From Caryophanales bacterium (lineage in GTDB: Bacteria > Bacillota > Bacilli > Paenibacillales > CANHCR01), in contig CANHCR010000018.1 in the NCBI GenBank assembly GCA_947459205.1, positions 1-45,544 of the forward strand: a DNA stretch of 45,544 bases, in the 5' to 3' direction. This document shows, piece by piece, positions 2,898-20,006 of this stretch. Under the pieces are notes generated by a model. The model saw nothing but the letters and a program-made list of their open reading frames with translations. It had not been told where the DNA came from and ran no database searches. How positions within the stretch are numbered: position 1 is the first letter of the stretch; every line of letters begins with the position of its first letter. A program made the translations under genes and the position numbers.

Positions 2898-3962
2898 ATG
2901 TTCAGTCAGCGGAAGTCGTCATGGCTTGTCATCCTGCTCGTGTTGGTATCGGTGTTCGTGCTAACCGGCTGTGGTGATGAATCGATTTCAGTTATGAAAC
3001 CTTCGGGTCCTGTAGCTGAGGAGCAACTGTGGTTGATGAAGTTAGGTATCACCATCATGGTATTTGTAGTCGTAGTCGTTTTTGCCATTTGGGGGTATGT
3101 TTTGTACAAGTTCCGTAAACGTAAAGGTGAACAGGACAAAACAGAAGCGATTGACAAGCAAGTGCAAGGCAATCATCTATACGAGATTATTTGGACGGTC
3201 ATTCCGTTCATCTTGCTCGTCATTCTTGCTGTGCCTACACTGACGTCGCTCTACAAACATGAGAAGACTTACTCTAAAGAAGAAGCGTTGCAGATCAAAG
3301 TTGTCGGTCACCAATTCTGGTGGGAGTTCCAGTACAAAGATATGGGCATTACAACGGCTCAAGATTTGTATATTCCGACCGGCAAGAAGATTCAGTTCGA
3401 TTTGACGGCATCCGACGTCATCCACTCGTTCTGGGTGCCTGCGATTGCAGGTAAGACGGATAACAATCCGGGATTAAACAACGAAATGTGGTTCCAAGCG
3501 GATAAGGAAGGCATTTTCCGCGGGAAGTGTGCTGAGCTTTGCGGTGCATCCCATGCGTTGATGGATTTCAAGGTGATCGCTATCAGCCCAGAAAAGTTTG
3601 AAAAGTGGGCGAAGGATTTCAAAGCATTAAAAGACAATCCGAAAACTGCTGATGCGAAAGAAGGACAAGCAGTGTTCGCGAACAAATGTCTGATGTGTCA
3701 TGCAGTCGGTGAAGCCGGCGGTAAAATTGGACCGAGCTTGACGACGATCGGTGATCGTACGGAAATTGCAGGGATTCTTCCGAACGACAAAACGAAACTC
3801 GGTCAAGAAGTCAATCCAAAACTCTTCAGAGACAATATGGATAACTGGTTGACGAACACGAACACAGTCAAACCAGGCAATAAGATGGGAATTATTCCAC
3901 TTACCAACAAAGAGAAAAACGCACTCATTGAATACCTTGCCGGTTTGAAACTTGAACAATAA
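2898..3962 (+). CDS. ctaC: Cytochrome caa3 oxidase subunit II with fused cytochrome c domain
   Basis: Subunit II (354 aa) accepts electrons from cytochrome c and passes them through its CuA centre to subunit I. It starts as a lipoprotein: a basic N-terminus, a hydrophobic core and the lipobox LTGC with Cys25. Two membrane segments follow (about 47-70 and 95-117), then an outer cupredoxin domain. The CuA ligands are visible as His176, Cys211, Cys215, His219 and Met222. A C-terminal cytochrome c domain has the heme motif CLMCH (Cys264, Cys267, His268) and a probable axial Met330, which marks the caa3 type. The ribosome site is weak (GGGG 2882-2885, 12 bases upstream). It is the first gene of the oxidase operon. 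Confidence 0.97.
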   Translation: MFSQRKSSWLVILLVLVSVFVLTGCGDESISVMKPSGPVAEEQLWLMKLGITIMVFVVVVVFAIWGYVLYKFRKRKGEQDKTEAIDKQVQGNHLYEIIWTVIPFILLVILAVPTLTSLYKHEKTYSKEEALQIKVVGHQFWWEFQYKDMGITTAQDLYIPTGKKIQFDLTASDVIHSFWVPAIAGKTDNNPGLNNEMWFQADKEGIFRGKCAELCGASHALMDFKVIAISPEKFEKWAKDFKALKDNPKTADAKEGQAVFANKCLMCHAVGEAGGKIGPSLTTIGDRTEIAGILPNDKTKLGQEVNPKLFRDNMDNWLTNTNTVKPGNKMGIIPLTNKEKNALIEYLAGLKLEQ

Positions 3963-3997
3963 GTAGTCAACAAACGTTAATTGAGGAGGTAAATGTC

Positions 3998-5896
3998 TTG
4001 GCTCAAGGACATGCAGTAAAACGGTATACCGGTCTGTTGGATTGGCTGACGACGGTTGACCACAAAAAAATTGGGATTCTCTACTTGCTTGCGGGCGGTC
4101 TGTTCTTTTTGATTGGTGGCTTTGAAGCAATTTTGATTCGGATTCAGTTGATGGATCCGGATAACACGTACTTCGTAGGTGCGACGTTCAATGCGTTAAC
4201 AACGATGCATGGAACGACGATGATTTTCTTTGCAGCGATGCCGATTATTTTCGGATTTATGAATGCGATCGTTCCATTACAGATTGGCGCGCGTGACGTT
4301 GCCTATCCATTCGTCAATGCACTCGGTTTTTGGTTGTTCTTCTTCGGCGGACTTTTGATGAACCTTAGTTGGATTTTGAACTACTTTGGAGCAACGGGTG
4401 TGCCTGATGCAGGTTGGACAGGGTATGCACCATTGTCATCTGCACACTCTGAAAGTATTGGCGGCGTAGACTTCTACGTTCTTGGTCTGCAGGTTGCTGG
4501 TATCGGTACGTTAATCGGGGGGATTAACTTCCTCGTTACGATCATCAACATGCGTGCACCTGGTATGAGTTACATGCGTATGCCATTGTTCACTTGGGCG
4601 TCGTTCATTACGTCCGCATTGATTTTGTTCGCTTTCCCGGCAATCACAGTCGGTTTGGTACTACTGATGTTCGACCGTTTGTTCGATGCCAATTTCTTCG
4701 ACGTGGTCGACGGTGGAAACCCAGTCATTTGGGAACACATCTTCTGGATCTTCGGACACCCTGAAGTTTACATTTTGATTTTGCCAGGATTCGGGATTAT
4801 TTCTGAGATTGTCTCCGTATTCTCGCGCAAAGTGTTGTTCGGTTACAGCACGATGGTGTTCGCTACCATTCTCATTGGTTTCTTGGGTTTCATGGTTTGG
4901 GTGCATCACATGTTTACCGTTGGTCTTGGGTTTACAGCAAACGCATTGTTTGCCATTGCAACGATGCTGATTGCGATTCCGACCGGGGTGAAAATATTTA
5001 ACTGGTTGTTCACGATGTGGGGCGGTCAGATTAGTTTTACAACAGCGAATTTATTCGCTACTGGGTTTATTCCGACGTTCGTTATGGGTGGGGTTACTGG
5101 CGTATTGCTTGCGGTACCATCCGCTGACTTCCAGTTCCATGACAGTTATTTTGTCGTCGCGCATTTCCACTACGTCATCGTCGGTGGTCTCGTTCTCGGA
5201 TTTTTCGCGGGTCTTTACTACTGGTGGCCAAAATTGTTCGGTACGATGCTGAACGAAACGCTTGGTAAAATTCAGTTCTGGACATTCTTTATCGGTTTCC
5301 ATTTGACATTCTTCGTGCAGCATTTCCTCGGCTTGCTTGGTATGCCACGCCGTGTATTCACGTACGAAAAAGGTGTCGGTATGGAACTTGGTAACTACAT
5401 CAGTACGCTCGGTGCGTTCTTGATGGGCATCAGTACACTAATTTTGATTTACAACATCGTTGTAACCACGATTAAAAACAAACGTGTTGGTGCAGATCCT
5501 TGGGACGGTCGTACGCTTGAGTGGGCAATTTCATCACCTGCTCCTGAATACAACTTTGCGCAAACACCACTTGTTCGTGGACTCGACGCTTTGTGGCACG
5601 AGAAAACAGCTGATGACGGCGATGGCAAAATGAAACCGGCGGAACCGCTTGGTGAAATTCACATGCCTTCTCCTTCATGGTTGCCAATTGCGATGTCATT
5701 TGGATTGTTCGTCTCTGGTTTTGGTTTTATGTATCGTCATTACGAGATTGCAATTATCGGTATCGTCATTACGTTAGTCTGCATGTTCCTGCGTTCTGTG
5801 TATGACGATCATGGTTTCCACATTTCGGTGGAAGAAGTATGTGAAACAGAAGGTATTGAGGTTCCGAAATCCAAAGCAGAGGAGGCCCACTCATGA
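3998..5896 (+). CDS. ctaD: Cytochrome caa3 oxidase subunit I
   Basis: This is the catalytic heme-copper subunit (632 aa), which reduces oxygen to water and pumps protons. Visible signatures are HPEVYILILPGFG with the His-Tyr pair of the CuB site, the paired His of VWVHHMFTVG, and HDSYFVVAHFHYV carrying the ligands of the two hemes. The length and the extra C-terminal hydrophobic segments (PIAMSFGLFVSGFGF and the one after it) match the long Bacillus-type subunit with about 14 membrane spans. The start is TTG 3998, supported by GAGGAGGT at 3983-3990, seven bases upstream. The stop overlaps the ctaE start by four bases, so the two are translationally coupled. Confidence 0.97.
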   Translation: MAQGHAVKRYTGLLDWLTTVDHKKIGILYLLAGGLFFLIGGFEAILIRIQLMDPDNTYFVGATFNALTTMHGTTMIFFAAMPIIFGFMNAIVPLQIGARDVAYPFVNALGFWLFFFGGLLMNLSWILNYFGATGVPDAGWTGYAPLSSAHSESIGGVDFYVLGLQVAGIGTLIGGINFLVTIINMRAPGMSYMRMPLFTWASFITSALILFAFPAITVGLVLLMFDRLFDANFFDVVDGGNPVIWEHIFWIFGHPEVYILILPGFGIISEIVSVFSRKVLFGYSTMVFATILIGFLGFMVWVHHMFTVGLGFTANALFAIATMLIAIPTGVKIFNWLFTMWGGQISFTTANLFATGFIPTFVMGGVTGVLLAVPSADFQFHDSYFVVAHFHYVIVGGLVLGFFAGLYYWWPKLFGTMLNETLGKIQFWTFFIGFHLTFFVQHFLGLLGMPRRVFTYEKGVGMELGNYISTLGAFLMGISTLILIYNIVVTTIKNKRVGADPWDGRTLEWAISSPAPEYNFAQTPLVRGLDALWHEKTADDGDGKMKPAEPLGEIHMPSPSWLPIAMSFGLFVSGFGFMYRHYEIAIIGIVITLVCMFLRSVYDDHGFHISVEEVCETEGIEVPKSKAEEAHS

Positions 5897-6507
5897 GTGC
5901 ACCACATTCCAATGAAGCAGTCAATGGCAGACTTGAAACAGCAACTCTTGAAGGCCGCAATAAAGTACTCGGCTTTTGGCTCTTCCTTGGCGGAGAGACT
6001 GTGCTTTTCGGCTGTTTGTTCGCGACATTCCTTGCTTTGCGTAATCAAGTCAATGACGGTCCTGGCGGTATGGATTTGTTCGAATTCAACATCGTTGCTT
6101 GGGCGACGTTCCTACTTCTCACAAGTAGTATGACGAGCGTTATGGCAATTGTTGAAATGCATCGCGGCAATGTGCAAATGATGCGTCTCTGGTTTATCGT
6201 GACGGTACTACTTGGTGCAGGGTTCCTTGGTCTTGAGATTTATGAGTTTATTCACTACTTGAACCTCGGATTAGGATTTACTGTATCGGCCTTCAGTAGT
6301 GCGTTCTATACGCTTGTTGGCTTCCACGGCGCTCACGTTGCCTTTGGTATTCTGTGGATTGCTTTGCTTGTCATCCAGTCTTACAAAAAGGGATTGACTA
6401 CTGTTACTGCGCCAAAGTTTTATGTTGCCGCGCTCTACTGGCACTTTGTCGACTTAGTATGGGTATTCATCTTTACTATCGTTTACTTGATGGGAAGGGT
6501 GGGTTAA
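5893..6507 (+). CDS. ctaE: Cytochrome caa3 oxidase subunit III
   Basis: Subunit III (204 aa) is a structural membrane subunit next to subunit I. It shows five hydrophobic segments, which is the short bacterial form, and family-typical FHGAHVAFGILW and YWHFVDLVWVFIF motifs. GAGGAGG (5879-5885) sits seven bases before ATG 5893, and the ATGA overlap with ctaD indicates coupled translation. ctaF follows after three bases. Confidence 0.96.
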   Translation: MSAPHSNEAVNGRLETATLEGRNKVLGFWLFLGGETVLFGCLFATFLALRNQVNDGPGGMDLFEFNIVAWATFLLLTSSMTSVMAIVEMHRGNVQMMRLWFIVTVLLGAGFLGLEIYEFIHYLNLGLGFTVSAFSSAFYTLVGFHGAHVAFGILWIALLVIQSYKKGLTTVTAPKFYVAALYWHFVDLVWVFIFTIVYLMGRVG

Positions 6508-6510
6508 TCA

Positions 6511-6792
6511 ATGGCAGGGAATAAAGCAGGTAGTACTCGCAACTATTGGTTGACGTTTGCCGTATCGATTGCTTTGACAGTGATCACGTTTTACATTGTT
6601 GCCAAACTCGATACGAGCGGTAACTTTTTAATTCCGTTTATGATTGTTTTGGCGATTGCGCAAGCGTTGTTCCAATTGATTTTCTGGATGCACATGAATG
6701 AGAAGGGTCACTTGATGCCGATAATCGGGATTGCAACGGGTGCATTCGTTGCATTGACGGCTGTCATCATGGCGCTTTATTGGGTATGGTAA
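6511..6792 (+). CDS. ctaF: Cytochrome caa3 oxidase subunit IV
   Basis: This small subunit (93 aa) has three hydrophobic segments separated by short loops. QALFQLIFWMHMNEKGH in the middle resembles bacterial oxidase subunit IV (CtaF/COX4-type), which stabilises the CuB region. It starts three bases after ctaE and ends the core oxidase genes. A strong hairpin with a short U-run follows immediately, separating it from ctaG. Confidence 0.93.
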   Translation: MAGNKAGSTRNYWLTFAVSIALTVITFYIVAKLDTSGNFLIPFMIVLAIAQALFQLIFWMHMNEKGHLMPIIGIATGAFVALTAVIMALYWVW

Positions 6793-6796
6793 AAGG

Positions 6797-6830
6797 AAGG
6801 GGGTCGGATTGCTTCGGCCCCCTTGTTTTA
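6797..6830 (+). terminator. Terminator or attenuator between ctaF and ctaG
   Basis: AAGGGGGTCG (6797-6806) can pair with CGGCCCCCTT (6815-6824) through one G-U pair, giving a GC-rich stem of about ten pairs, followed by GTTTTA. The stem is very stable but the U-run is short, and ctaG starts only 34 bases after it with no clear promoter between. Partial read-through that lowers expression of the assembly genes is a reasonable reading. Confidence 0.7.
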
Positions 6831-6863
6831 TAGGCAAGAGACTTATACGGAGGCATAGACAAA

Positions 6864-7742
6864 ATGGATCATACAGCTCATGATCACAGCCACCATCACG
6901 GTAATGTTCCGGAATGGTCGCAATTGACATTTACAGATTTGTGGACACCTTGGATGATCGTTCTGTTGATTTTGATTTTTGTTGCATACTTGCTGTTTAC
7001 CGGTGCTTGGCGTCATAAGTTATCGAAAGATGCGCCTGAATTTTCGAATTGGCGTAAATGGATGTTCGGTCTTGGTTTGTTGCTGATTTATTTCTCCTCT
7101 GGTTCTCCTTTAGCGATTTTAGGGCATGACTACATGTTCAGTGCCCATATGATGCAACAATCACTTCTTTATTTGGCGGTTCCGCCGCTTATTCTGATGG
7201 GATTACCGACATGGTGGTTTGAACCGCTAGCAAAAAAGCGGGCGGTAGTAATTGCTTTTAAAATCATCCAACACCCATTGTTCGCCTTGCTGAATTTCAA
7301 CGTATTTTTCTCGTTTTATCACATTCCGCACATTTTTGATGCGATGACAGCCAATCATACGTACCACTATTTGTATCATTTCTGGTTACAATTTTGTGCG
7401 ATACAAATGTGGTTGCAAATCATCTCGCCGATTCCGAGTTTAGATCGTTTGCGTCCATTGCAAAAAATCGGTTATATTTTTGCTAACGGTGTATTGTTGA
7501 CACCAGCTTGTGCGTTGATTATTTTTGCCGATAGTGTGCTTTATGAAACGTACGCGAATACACCCGTTGTGTTTGAAATTTTTTCTAAACTGGATGACCA
7601 ACAACTGGGTGGCGTCATTATGAAGTTGATGCAGGAAGCTGTATATGGGTTGGCATTAGGCATCATTTTTTATCGTTGGTTTTATCGTGAACGTGCGAAA
7701 GATCGCGCAGAATCGAGTACTTCAAGTCAAACGAGTTCATAA
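6864..7742 (+). CDS. ctaG: Cytochrome c oxidase assembly factor CtaG (caa3 type)
   Basis: CtaG (292 aa) is a multi-spanning membrane protein needed for active caa3 oxidase in Bacillus, and it is thought to act in copper delivery to CuB. Around seven hydrophobic segments are visible. Family-like features include SAHMMQQSLLYLAVPPLILMG and the His-containing SFYHIPHIFD and YHYLYHFW stretches. The N-terminus is His/Asp-rich (MDHTAHDHSHHHG), a plausible metal-binding tail. GGAGG (6849-6853) precedes ATG 6864. It follows the oxidase genes, as in Bacillus. Confidence 0.93.
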   Translation: MDHTAHDHSHHHGNVPEWSQLTFTDLWTPWMIVLLILIFVAYLLFTGAWRHKLSKDAPEFSNWRKWMFGLGLLLIYFSSGSPLAILGHDYMFSAHMMQQSLLYLAVPPLILMGLPTWWFEPLAKKRAVVIAFKIIQHPLFALLNFNVFFSFYHIPHIFDAMTANHTYHYLYHFWLQFCAIQMWLQIISPIPSLDRLRPLQKIGYIFANGVLLTPACALIIFADSVLYETYANTPVVFEIFSKLDDQQLGGVIMKLMQEAVYGLALGIIFYRWFYRERAKDRAESSTSSQTSS

Positions 7743-7759
7743 TTAGGAAGGTGGAGCAA

Positions 7760-8218
7760 ATGCATACGATTTTACCGACAATCAGTACTTCATTTATTGT
7801 GCTTAGTGCTATTTTGGTGGCCATTGGTTGGCGTTTTATTGTTACGAAGAACCGCGCAGCACATGAGCGGACGATGGTATGGGCGGCGATTGCTGCAGTC
7901 ATCTTTTTCATCATTTATGTGTCCCGAACGATTTTTGTCGGCAACACTTCTTTTGGTGGTCCTGAAGCATTGAAATTACCTTATCAAATTTTCCTGTTTT
8001 CACATATCATCCTTGCACTCGTCGCGGCTATACTAGGTTTGGTTACTTTGTACCGCGCTTGGAAAAAACAATTTGAGAAACATCGCAAACTCGGGCCGAC
8101 GACTGCGGTTGTTTGGTTTGTGACAGCCATCACTGGTGTGACTGTGTATGTACTGTTATACATCTTGTACCCAGGTGGTAAGACGGTAAGTGTTGTCGAA
8201 AAATTATTCGGCTGGTAA
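7760..8218 (+). CDS. ctaM: DUF420 membrane protein, CtaM-like oxidase maturation factor
   Basis: This 152-residue protein has four hydrophobic segments and conserved histidines (LFSHIILA and the helix around AHERTMVWA), matching the DUF420 family (YozB in Bacillus subtilis, CtaM in Staphylococcus aureus). CtaM is required for maturation of heme-copper oxidases. I chose ATG 7760 because AGGAAGGTGG (7745-7754) is correctly spaced for it; the in-frame GTG at 7751 lies inside that site. Its position between ctaG and ctaB supports the role. Confidence 0.85.
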   Translation: MHTILPTISTSFIVLSAILVAIGWRFIVTKNRAAHERTMVWAAIAAVIFFIIYVSRTIFVGNTSFGGPEALKLPYQIFLFSHIILALVAAILGLVTLYRAWKKQFEKHRKLGPTTAVVWFVTAITGVTVYVLLYILYPGGKTVSVVEKLFGW

Positions 8219-8249
8219 TTTTCAATTCATCATGTAGGAGGACGCAACT

Positions 8250-9152
8250 GTGAATGTGAGTCCAACCGCTGAACAGGCATTGCAGCCTCTTTGGCGTGAG
8301 TATGTTACGTTAACGAAACCGGGCATTATCCGTTCGAATTTGTTTACCACGTTCGGTGGCTTTTGGTTAGCTGCCCAAGGGCAATTATCGTCTCATTGGG
8401 TGTTGTTGCTGCTTGTTCTGCTTGCAACGTCATTGGTAATGGCGTCTGCTTGTGTGTTCAACAATTATTTCGATCGTGATCGTGATTATTTAATGGAGCG
8501 GACGCAAAATCGAGCGCTTGTCACTGGTCGCATCGCGCCGCGTCATGTGCTTGTTTTTGCGATATTACTCGGTGTTGCCGGGCTTGCGTTGTTTGCACTG
8601 TTCGTGCATTTCTGGGCGCTTATTTGGGCAATCGCGGGCATGTTCGTATATATCGTCATCTACACGTTGTGGTTGAAACGTAGTTCGACGCACAGCACAC
8701 TGATTGGTGGCATTTCCGGAGCGGTTCCACCAGTTATTGGCTATGTCGCAGTTAGTGAGTCGATGGACATCGCTGCATGGGCATTATTTTTGATTTTGTT
8801 CATTTGGCAACCACCGCACTTTTTCGCTTTGGCGATTCGCCGAGTCGAAGAGTACCGCGCCGCAAAGTTTCCGCTTTTGCCGGTCGTCAAAGGGATACCG
8901 ATTACTAAAGTGCAAATGGTGATTTACATTGTGCTGATGGTGCCATGCATATGGTTGCTTTATGGTTACGGTTACGCAGGCATCATTTACTTGATTGGTG
9001 GACTTGTATTAACCGCCGTATGGTTGCTGTTTGCGGTTCGTGGTTTTTTTGCGAAAAACGAGACAATCTGGGCGCGCAATACGTTTTTATATTCGATCGC
9101 ATATCTGATACTACTGTTTGTTTTGATAATGGTCGATACGGTGAAAGGGTAG
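8250..9152 (+). CDS. ctaB: Protoheme IX farnesyltransferase (heme O synthase)
   Basis: CtaB (300 aa) attaches a farnesyl group to heme B to make heme O, the precursor of the heme A used by the caa3 oxidase. The UbiA-type prenyltransferase motif is clear: NNYFDRDRDYLMERTQNR with its Asp-rich metal-diphosphate site, and a second Asp/Glu-poor loop around AIRRVEEYRAAKFPLLPVV. About nine membrane segments are present. The start is GTG 8250, supported by AGGAGG (8236-8241) eight bases upstream. Confidence 0.96.
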   Translation: MNVSPTAEQALQPLWREYVTLTKPGIIRSNLFTTFGGFWLAAQGQLSSHWVLLLLVLLATSLVMASACVFNNYFDRDRDYLMERTQNRALVTGRIAPRHVLVFAILLGVAGLALFALFVHFWALIWAIAGMFVYIVIYTLWLKRSSTHSTLIGGISGAVPPVIGYVAVSESMDIAAWALFLILFIWQPPHFFALAIRRVEEYRAAKFPLLPVVKGIPITKVQMVIYIVLMVPCIWLLYGYGYAGIIYLIGGLVLTAVWLLFAVRGFFAKNETIWARNTFLYSIAYLILLFVLIMVDTVKG

Positions 9153-9164
9153 AGGAGGATTTTT

Positions 9165-9767
9165 TTGGACTCAAAAGTGTTTCGCCGCAGTTTACAATGG
9201 TCTGTCATCGGTTTGTGTTTGTTGTTTGCTGGTTTGTATGCATATCAATCGTTTGTCTTGAAAAATCAATTGCCTGATTTAGGGAAGGCCGAAAATTTCA
9301 CGATGACGAGTAGTGCCGGTTCTCAAGTGGAGATGAATTCGTTAAATGGCAAGGTGCGTTTGGTTTACTTTTTCTTTGCTAATTGTCCCGATGTTTGTCC
9401 GCCAACAACCAAGAAACTTGCTGATGTGCAGGGTGAGTTGAAGAAGCGCGGATATGGTGCGGAAGATGTGCAGTTCCTATCGGTTACGGTCGATCCGAAA
9501 AATGACAATGCGGAGAAACTAAACGCATTCGCCGCGAAAAACGGTGCTCAACTTGATAACTGGTCGTTTTTATTCACAGATTTCGAGACGACGAAGAAGG
9601 TCGCGAATAAGTACAAGGTCGGTGTGGTGCTTGATGCTGATAATCGCGTTTATCACAATAATCAGGTCGCTTTGATCGATCAAGAGGGAAATATCCGCCA
9701 ATACTATAAAGAACAGGCCATTCAAGTTAAGCAAATCATCGAAGATGCAGAAAAACTTCTCCCTTGA
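9165..9767 (+). CDS. Sco1/SenC family copper chaperone
   Basis: Sco proteins (here 200 aa) are membrane-anchored thioredoxin-fold proteins that load copper into the CuA site of subunit II. An N-terminal anchor (about residues 11-30) is followed by the copper motif CPDVCP (Cys74, Cys78) and a candidate third ligand His164, at the position of the conserved His in Bacillus Sco (YpmQ). The start is TTG 9165 with AGAGGAGG (9151-9158) six bases upstream. It ends the oxidase block, and its stop codon lies in the loop of the terminator. Confidence 0.93.
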   Translation: MDSKVFRRSLQWSVIGLCLLFAGLYAYQSFVLKNQLPDLGKAENFTMTSSAGSQVEMNSLNGKVRLVYFFFANCPDVCPPTTKKLADVQGELKKRGYGAEDVQFLSVTVDPKNDNAEKLNAFAAKNGAQLDNWSFLFTDFETTKKVANKYKVGVVLDADNRVYHNNQVALIDQEGNIRQYYKEQAIQVKQIIEDAEKLLP

Positions 9768-18421: not shown

Positions 18422-18793
18422 ATGAAAGAATCAGTAAAAAACCAAGTGCAAGTCGAAATCTCTGGCATCACCTACACGTTCAACACGGATGCCAGTCCGA
18501 TTCATATGAAAAAAATGGCGCATCTCGTCGACCGCTTGATGGACAAAAACGAAAAGTTATTTCCATTGCTCGATCAGTCGCGCTTAGCCATTTTGGCTGC
18601 TTTGCAACTTGCGGATGAAAACATTATGCTCGAAAAGGAAAATGAAACGTTGAAAGATGCGCAAGAAGATGTGACCGAATCGGCGACCTACAAAAAGTTG
18701 CGGGACGAGCACCTCAAACTGCGTGAGGATTATGCGAAGTTGCGTGCGGCTTACACCGAATTGAAACAAAAAGTGGACAAGCCGAGTGTTTAG
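18422..18793 (+). CDS. zapA: Cell division protein ZapA
   Basis: ZapA (123 aa) binds and bundles FtsZ filaments at the division ring. The N-terminal globular part has family-like VQVEISGITYTFNTDASPIH and KMAHLVDRLMDKN segments, followed by a long coiled coil (about residues 55-118). It is longer than the roughly 85-residue Bacillus protein because of the extended coiled coil. Its place right after pheT matches B. subtilis yshA. GGGAGGG (18403-18409) is 12 bases from ATG 18422, a slightly long spacing. Confidence 0.9.
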   Translation: MKESVKNQVQVEISGITYTFNTDASPIHMKKMAHLVDRLMDKNEKLFPLLDQSRLAILAALQLADENIMLEKENETLKDAQEDVTESATYKKLRDEHLKLREDYAKLRAAYTELKQKVDKPSV

Positions 18794-18801
18794 AATAAAA
18801 C

Positions 18802-18836
18802 AAAAAGTTCAGCAGACTGCTTGCTGAACTTTTTTT
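18802..18836. terminator. Bidirectional terminator after zapA
   Basis: AAAAAGTTCAGCA (18802-18814) pairs perfectly with TGCTGAACTTTTT (18822-18834) around a seven-base loop and continues into U residues. It lies between the converging ends of zapA and the cupredoxin gene, so it can serve both. Confidence 0.88.
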
Positions 18837-18864: not shown

Positions 18865-19251
18865 CTACGTAACAATCAATTTGGAAACCATTTGCGCGTG
18901 GCCACTACCGCAAGGAATGGAGCAGATAATGTTATACTCGCCAGCTGTCAAGGTGACGGTCTCGCTGTCGCCATCGTTCAAGTTAATGTCTGTGCCGGTA
19001 ATTGCAATGCCGTGCACGCCTTGCTCACTTTTGAAAGAAATCTTCACTGGTTGACCGGCCTTCACTGTAAACTCTTTTTCATTGAAAGCAAAATTTGTTG
19101 CGGTTACGTTCACCACTTGCTCGTTGCCAACACCTTCAGTTACTTCTGTTTGTTCAGAAGGTTTGGCTGTTTGTTCTTCTGCGCCACCGCACGCCGGCAG
19201 CACAACCAGGGACAACAACAGGAAAGGCAGCAACATCCATCTTATCAACAT
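18865..19251 (-). CDS. Stand-alone cupredoxin lipoprotein with a CuA-type motif
   Basis: This 128-residue exported lipoprotein has an N-terminal hydrophobic segment ending in the lipobox LPAC (Cys21), a Gln/Glu/Thr-rich linker (about 25-40), and one cupredoxin domain. Its ligand pattern is His80, then Cys110-x3-Cys114-x3-His118-x2-Met121, the same spacing as the CuA site of oxidase subunit II in this window (Cys211, Cys215, His219, Met222). It lacks the membrane spans and heme domain of a true subunit II. It could be an electron carrier, a copper-delivery protein or part of an alternative oxidase or nitrous-oxide-type system, but no such partner gene is adjacent. GAGGAGG precedes ATG 19251. 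Confidence 0.85.
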   Translation of the reverse strand: MLIRWMLLPFLLLSLVVLPACGGAEEQTAKPSEQTEVTEGVGNEQVVNVTATNFAFNEKEFTVKAGQPVKISFKSEQGVHGIAITGTDINLNDGDSETVTLTAGEYNIICSIPCGSGHAQMVSKLIVT

Positions 19252-19298
19252 TTGTCTTCCTCCTCATATTGTTCTAAACATTTTTTTGTTACACAAAG

Positions 19299-19328
19299 AT
19301 TATACAATACTTATACAATTCATCGCAA
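19299..19328 (-). promoter_or_regulatory. Promoter for the cupredoxin lipoprotein
   Basis: On the minus strand, TTGCGA (19328-19323) and a perfect TATAAT (19304-19299) are separated by 18 bases. They lie about 50 bases upstream of the start codon at 19251. Confidence 0.5.
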
Positions 19329-19493: not shown

Positions 19494-19504
19494 TCGATTA
19501 TTTT

Positions 19505-19524
19505 GACGACTGTTAGTCGTCTTT
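19505..19524 (+). terminator. Hairpin between the small peptide and the zinc-ribbon gene
   Basis: GACGACT (19505-19511) and AGTCGTC (19515-19521) form a perfect seven-pair stem with a three-base loop, followed by only three U residues. It ends four bases before the AGGAGG site of the next gene, so it may be a weak terminator or may affect initiation there. Confidence 0.4.
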
Positions 19525-19538
19525 CAGGAGGTTTTCAG

Positions 19539-20006
19539 ATGCAAACCATTTGTCCGTGGTGTGATGCGGAAATCGTTTGGGATGAGGAAATTGGTCCCGA
19601 GGAAATGTGTCCGCATTGTTTCAATGAATTAGGGAATTACCGCTCGGTTTCACTAGACGGTGTGGTGGACGATGAGGAAGCTGGCGGTACGGCACAGCCT
19701 ACCTCGCAAATGCCGAATGTGGTGCAGGTGGAGACGAGCGGTGAACTGCTCCAGTTTGCGCGCAAGGTGCTGCAAGAGCAAGAGGAGTGGCTGCTGTGTG
19801 GACACTGCGAGGAACCGATGGTTCACGTCGGCACGCAGACGCTCGATGCCAACCGTTTTCAAGCGCGCAAATGGCAGGGCAGAGCCATATTGCAGGCGCC
19901 ATTTTCGTATGAGGTGTTCATCTGTCCGAACTGCGATAAACTCGAACAAGTGTTGTCGCTGACTGATAAGCACAAATGGCTATCACAGGTGAAAAGCGGG
20001 CAATGA
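19539..20006 (+). CDS. Zinc-ribbon protein of unknown function
   Basis: This 155-residue soluble protein has four CxxC pairs: Cys5/Cys8 and Cys24/Cys27 at the N-terminus, and Cys87/Cys90 and Cys129/Cys132 further on, enough for two zinc ribbons. An acidic linker (about 40-65) joins them. I do not recognise a named family. AGGAGG (19526-19531) is seven bases before ATG 19539, which decides the start; the frame extends a little further upstream without a better site. Its stop overlaps the cysteine synthase start (ATGA), suggesting coupled translation, though a functional link to cysteine synthesis is only a guess. Confidence 0.8.
   Translation: MQTICPWCDAEIVWDEEIGPEEMCPHCFNELGNYRSVSLDGVVDDEEAGGTAQPTSQMPNVVQVETSGELLQFARKVLQEQEEWLLCGHCEEPMVHVGTQTLDANRFQARKWQGRAILQAPFSYEVFICPNCDKLEQVLSLTDKHKWLSQVKSGQ

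Follow-up and report, generated by a model that had tools for sequence, protein, structure and literature searches.

The stretch of DNA analyzed here (the window, 45,544 nucleotides from a Caryophanales bacterium) carries on its minus strand a small gene, positions 18865–19251, that starts with ATG and encodes a 128-residue protein matching Pfam Cupredoxin_1, for which 81 homologues were aligned. It is preceded on the same strand by a ribosome-binding site (GGAGGA, 19258–19263) and by a promoter-like element found by consensus scan (TTGCGA-18-TATAAT, 19299–19328), which agrees at 10 of 12 positions and is a candidate only. On one side the gene converges on zapA (18422–18793, plus strand; Pfam ZapA), the last gene of a pheS-pheT-zapA series whose order with the CuA gene is conserved in relatives. 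Between the two convergent genes, and common to both, is a terminator-like hairpin (18802–18834, minus strand); Rfam gave no match at the locus. On the other side is a gene for a small protein with zinc-ribbon-like Cys pairs (19503–20006), syntenic in the order with mutS2 and DUF350. Its product has a sub-cut-off match only in Pfam, and its relative at L070:684–1211 matches no family.

The CuA protein consists of a signal peptide ending in LPAC and followed by GG, a low-complexity linker and a single cupredoxin domain, with no further membrane span and no heme motif in its sequence. The signal peptide and lipobox make up residues 1–21 (19189–19251, minus strand), with C21 as the predicted lipidated Cys; C21 and G22 are each conserved at 90% in the 81-row alignment. 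The Pro at position -2 of the window's lipobox is non-canonical and unusual. Of the 84 sequences scanned for a lipobox (three of them CbaB), 71 gave a match.

The window also contains a caa3 oxidase cluster on the plus strand (2898–9764), comprising ctaC (from 2898), ctaD, ctaE and genes for CtaG, a DUF420 protein (7751–8218, between CtaG and the UbiA-type gene), a UbiA-type (CtaB-like) protein and Sco (to 9764). This cluster is 9–16 kb from the CuA gene. In the source genome a single COX1 was found, which lies 13 kb away and has its own ctaC. The first-pass annotation had described a small lipoprotein with no heme domain, membrane spans or adjacent oxidase gene; the sequence and its neighbours bear out these three absences, and the protein is a predicted lipoprotein.

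The CuA ligand spacing and upstream His that had been pointed out earlier are present exactly as described. The first CuA histidine, H80 (19012–19014, minus strand), aligns with the corresponding His of COX2 and CbaB, and the loop C110-x3-C114-x3-H118-x2-M121 (18889–18924, minus strand), which reads C110-SIP-C114-GSG-H118-AQ-M121 in the window protein, aligns with the CuA domain of the T. thermophilus ba3 oxidase (2cua/2lln). The full ligand set, in CuA order and spacing, is contained in a single chain. Conservation was assessed on 80 loci taken with their flanks from the order, from which the proteins were extracted and 81 rows aligned. The five ligands are invariant in 81 of 81 rows, as are G78, G104, G115 and V127, and neither Cys nor any other ligand has been lost among the order homologues read, so the idea of an orphan CuA site outside an oxidase subunit passes the check that the first reading proposed. 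A chance motif is ruled out by this five-ligand invariance.

In the oxidases, a Glu between the CuA Cys residues faces subunit I. The subunits II of these genomes have Glu two residues past the first Cys (CAELC in CtaC, CNEYC in CbaB), whereas 79 of the 81 orphans have Ile, Val or Leu at the same position, a replacement that fits a protein docking on no subunit I. Four class-level relatives (L162:7489–7917, L166:4989–5432, L175:4998–5408 and L179:4998–5444) have the spacing C-x3-C-x5-H-x2-M (for example, CTQICGPTDKHESM), and their copper site, with two extra loop residues, may differ. The first of these, L162, is located near cbaBA. (The relative at L177, G377:C1:69638–80000, lies in a stretch that is partly N and is unreadable.)

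Family models place the window protein among the cupredoxins and apart from the oxidase subunits. It scores 28 bits against Cupredoxin_1 (PF13473; cut-off 27), no match to PF00116 was reported at E ≤ 1, and its 24.8 bits against TIGR02866 are far under the cut-off of 147.7; a relative in genome G066 scores 23.8 bits against PF00116 (cut-off 22). In a single-sequence phmmer search of the PDB, the top match was the CuA domain of the T. thermophilus ba3 oxidase (2lln, 2e-8; 2cua, 3e-8), with N2O reductase among the weaker matches below it, and a profile of the family matches PDB CuA domains at E 3e-16. AlphaFold2, run with the 81-row alignment, predicts most of the domain with pLDDT of about 97 (46–55 for blocks of the linker and about 61 for the signal peptide). 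For this predicted model, Foldseek again returns ba3 oxidase CuA domains as the best matches (E about 1e-8, TM about 0.6), followed by N2O reductase and other cupredoxins. With five invariant ligands, these PDB matches and a CuA-like predicted fold, the relationship to CuA domains is far beyond chance.

A search of genome contigs with the single protein gave three distant loci only: CbaB in a Chloroflexi MAG, a Verrucomicrobiales subunit II and a haloarchaeal protein. In a quick tree, the orphans fall on one side of a branch with support of 97, and CbaB and CtaC fall apart from them; the tree was built on 92 columns only, so that its inner forks are weak. The copies adjacent to ba3 genes do not form one clade, and repeated gain or loss of this adjacency is therefore possible. 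A decayed or split oxidase subunit is ruled out by the conserved synteny, the separate clade and the purifying selection seen in relatives.

The source organism's own taxonomic family contains no other genome, and relatives were therefore sought across the order. At E ≤ 1e-3, the order search found a homologue in 194 of 201 genomes, often in several copies. The earlier expectation that such a protein would be uncommon is thus wrong for this lineage; judging from these homologues, the family is widespread in Paenibacillus-like bacteria. Its commonest location in the order is on the opposite strand between pheS-pheT-zapA(-cvpA) and mutS2-DUF350-(small protein). The window has the order pheS-pheT-zapA-CuA, followed by the same small protein as in relatives, and mutS2 is not adjacent. 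Most relatives sit at this zapA or another housekeeping locus and not with a subunit I gene. Five relatives are located on the same strand at the ba3 genes cbaB-cbaA, three from the order (L075, L085 and L088) and two from the class (L155 and L162, the latter with two other genes intervening). A few paralogues lie beside cbaA where cbaA has its own CbaB. In other paralogues, an N-terminal membrane helix replaces the lipobox; these are found in conserved positions, at pdp-dacF-spoIIA (L044, L046 and L096) and steA-steB (L078 and L091), gene names assigned by eye, and the steB-like gene of L091 matches MctB (PF11382). Class-level relatives come from many families and lie next to unrelated housekeeping genes, while class matches near E 1e-16, in frames of about 160 residues, look like CbaB and not like orphans.

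Does the orphan follow the CuA oxidases? A CuA-type subunit II was defined as a PF00116 match better than 1e-10, a threshold set by motif checks: those strong matches that were inspected contain the CuA motif, nine of the weak matches lack it and read as QoxA, and another five weak loci could not be read. So defined, CuA-type subunit II is found in 181 of the 201 genomes, and every one of the 181 has the orphan. The 20 genomes without it comprise 13 that keep the orphan and seven that do not (Fisher 3e-8, uncorrected for kinship, the losses falling in three genera). COX1 was searched in 22 genomes, including all seven that have lost the orphan and four orphan-keepers of genus g19; a single COX1 was found in every one of the eleven, and in five of the seven loss genomes it was read as the quinol type.

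Sco (PF02630, with its cut-off) and cytochrome c (PF13442) were searched in 30 genomes. Among the genomes with the orphan, ten near-complete ones (G022, G066, G070, G080, G200, G132, G144, G198, G039 and G103) have no detected CuA COX2, no Sco above the cut-off and no PF13442 match; G039 and G103 have Sco matches below it. The families covered were thus PF00116 for subunit II, PF02630 and PF13442. The call that c-type cytochromes are missing is based on PF13442, and a QcrC-type cytochrome is presumably absent as well, since PF13442 matches frames of that size in relatives. Near-complete genomes of this kind occur in genera g19, g24 (in part) and g25 (for example, G022, G132 and G039), in which the cytochrome c branch has apparently been lost repeatedly. 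The protein was read in five of the ten genomes, those of genus g19, and in G039, and in all of these the CuA motif is intact; the orphan in the other four is known from order-search E-values alone. Pairwise dN/dS for the orphan in genus g19 is 0.07–0.16 where computable, with dS often near saturation; by this measure, purifying selection acts on the orphan in the single tested genus that has no detected CuA subunit II. A role solely as an accessory of CuA oxidases is disfavoured by the persistence of the orphan in genomes where neither a CuA subunit II nor cytochrome c was detected. As for the first-pass suggestions, copper donation to a CuA oxidase cannot be the whole function of a gene that persists, under selection where tested, in genomes where CuA subunit II, Sco and c-type cytochromes all went undetected; the orphan may be a free CuA carrier.

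CuA centres are textbook electron-entry sites and normally occur in two enzyme types only, the respiratory oxidases and nitrous oxide reductase; the orphan shares features with both. The closest match in sequence and structure is CbaB, the ba3 subunit II (T. thermophilus 2cua, 1ehk), which has the same cupredoxin fold and the same H plus C-x3-C-x3-H-x2-M. However, CbaB has a membrane helix, a cbaA neighbour and Glu or Gln between the Cys residues, whereas the orphan has a predicted lipid anchor, a hydrophobic residue at that position, no subunit I partner and a clade of its own. CtaC, the caa3 subunit II (PF00116/TIGR02866), is similar in its CuA ligands and gives the weak NCBIfam match, but the orphan lacks the transmembrane hairpin and the cytochrome c domain and is far below the family cut-off. 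The C-terminal CuA domain of NosZ has the ligands and the fold; the orphan, on the other hand, has no beta-propeller and no CuZ domain, and no nos genes were noticed beside it at the loci inspected. Sco/SenC and CtaG share the context of oxidase biogenesis, and Sco is another copper protein of the outer face, but these proteins have a thioredoxin fold or are polytopic and are not homologous. The nearest precedent for a free-standing CuA protein is PmoD (PmoD/AmoD), a small, separately encoded protein that forms CuA outside the oxidases and N2O reductase (PMC6189053). In PmoD, the site forms between two chains with the motif Cx7MxHxnC, and the protein has a C-terminal transmembrane helix (PMC6189053), whereas the orphan has all of its ligands in one chain in the classical order and neither that motif nor that helix. 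A paper on denitrifying Bacillus covers CuA-type subunits II and cytochrome c lipoproteins, and the portion available makes no mention of a free CuA lipoprotein (PMC3475470). No description of the orphan's family was found in the open full-text literature searched.

A further connection to the oxidases comes from the upstream regions of relatives. TTGTCAC occurs in 35 of 81 regions upstream of orphans, compared to 1.1 expected, and in most relatives it sits in a direct repeat with 11-bp spacing, TTCAC-N4-TTGTCAC, at about -80 to -140 (for example, L049, L069 and L090). In 71 of the 81 regions, the score of the repeat reaches roughly the 99th percentile of shuffles or more, with a matrix trained on the same regions; within 1.3 Mb of flanking sequence, nearly every strong match is at an orphan CuA gene. 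In sequence outside that set, a comparable repeat precedes most of 19 ctaC genes of relatives, mostly in inverted orientation (AGTTCACAAATTGTTC); L266, L268 and L283 have the repeat upstream of ctaC, and as a group the ctaC upstream regions outscore other genes (p 1e-8). The repeat is decayed in genus g19. It was not seen at the window's own CuA gene (score 3.0) and is weak at the window's ctaC, and the evidence for co-regulation thus comes from relatives and not from the source genome. When 31 genomes were scanned for the repeat, each had few sites. Apart from those at the CuA gene, one site precedes an sdhC-like gene and one a ctaA-like gene, and two genomes have sites close to a NADH-oxidase-like gene (these gene names were assigned by eye); no ctaA homologue turned up in a search near ctaC. 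The repeat resembles the ResD consensus (TTTGTGAAT), which was not found in the literature searched, and ResD is thus a candidate regulator. It may be a response-regulator site common to the CuA gene and the caa3 operon, and in relatives the orphan appears, from these upstream sequences, to be co-regulated with the caa3 oxidase.

What does the orphan protein do? Its best-supported description is that of a putative single-chain, membrane-tethered CuA protein outside any oxidase. The lipid anchor would tether the cupredoxin domain to the outer face of the membrane, where a mixed-valence dicopper centre would be held in one chain, as in oxidase subunit II, with the protein docking on no catalytic subunit. 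The explanation that we tentatively place first is that this free-standing CuA redox protein would serve the aerobic respiratory system, most likely as a one-electron carrier or buffer. At least one of its partners would lie outside the cytochrome c/CuA branch, given that the orphan is retained in genomes with no such branch detected. An electron carrier is slightly favoured by the completeness and invariance of the site and by the motif in common with caa3. The computations establish the ligand set and its invariance, the predicted fold, the anchor motif, the separation from subunit II, the distribution, the synteny and, in relatives, the common promoter motif; the binding of two coppers, electron cycling at the site in vivo, a regulatory role for the repeat and the partners are inferences from these. 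Against this explanation, the housekeeping neighbours of most relatives are uninformative on function, the repeat is missing at the window's own copy, weak at its ctaC and decayed in genus g19, and the window's lipobox has its unusual Pro at -2.

It is doubtful, but credible, that the orphan is instead an extracytoplasmic copper reservoir or insertion factor, which would hold copper at the outer face and either buffer it or supply the CuB and/or CuA sites of heme-copper oxidases with it. Such a role is favoured by persistence without cytochrome c: genomes that lack c-type cytochromes offer no apparent electron donor or acceptor, which speaks for copper handling over electron transfer, and the orphan is kept in genomes without detected Sco in which Qox, an enzyme that still requires CuB, is the sole heme-copper oxidase detected. 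The presence of the orphan wherever there is a CuA oxidase, the adjacent ba3 genes in some relatives, the upstream motif common to ctaC and the one transmembrane-anchored paralogue that adjoins a MctB/SteB-type gene are all in keeping with it. However, a full five-ligand site, with Met and both His invariant, exceeds the needs of a chaperone, and complete CuA sites bind copper tightly. Furthermore, the caa3 cluster of the source genome already has Sco and CtaG, and the seven genomes that have lost the orphan still carry COX1, mostly read as the quinol type.

A shuttle for the caa3 and ba3 oxidases alone, parallel to cytochrome c551 and with no other role, is improbable. Adjacency to cbaBA in several lineages, the promoter motif in common with ctaC and the fact that the orphan was never lost in the 181 genomes with CuA COX2 would all suit it, but 13 genomes keep the orphan with no CuA-type COX2, ten of them near-complete and without PF13442 cytochrome c, and selection on the gene is purifying in the genus tested. 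Slightly less probable still is a protein without dicopper redox chemistry (a mononuclear or copper-free sensor, a scavenger of NO or peroxide, or a structural cupredoxin), for while the loop is not frozen everywhere, as the few class-level relatives with second Cys and His spaced two residues further apart indicate, all five ligands are invariant in the order.

Returning to a free-standing CuA redox protein as the preferred reading, it is possible, though less assured than the reading itself, that a further class of CuA proteins exists beside oxidase subunit II, NosZ and PmoD. Its members would be single-chain, tethered carriers whose work requires neither a CuA enzyme nor a c-type cytochrome, which would extend CuA redox physiology beyond the known respiratory complexes. 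A near-universal orphan in a large order, kept even where no CuA enzymes or cytochrome c were detected, would point either to an electron-transfer pathway yet to be described or to a copper store built on CuA, and CuA chemistry would gain a natural single-domain model in this protein.
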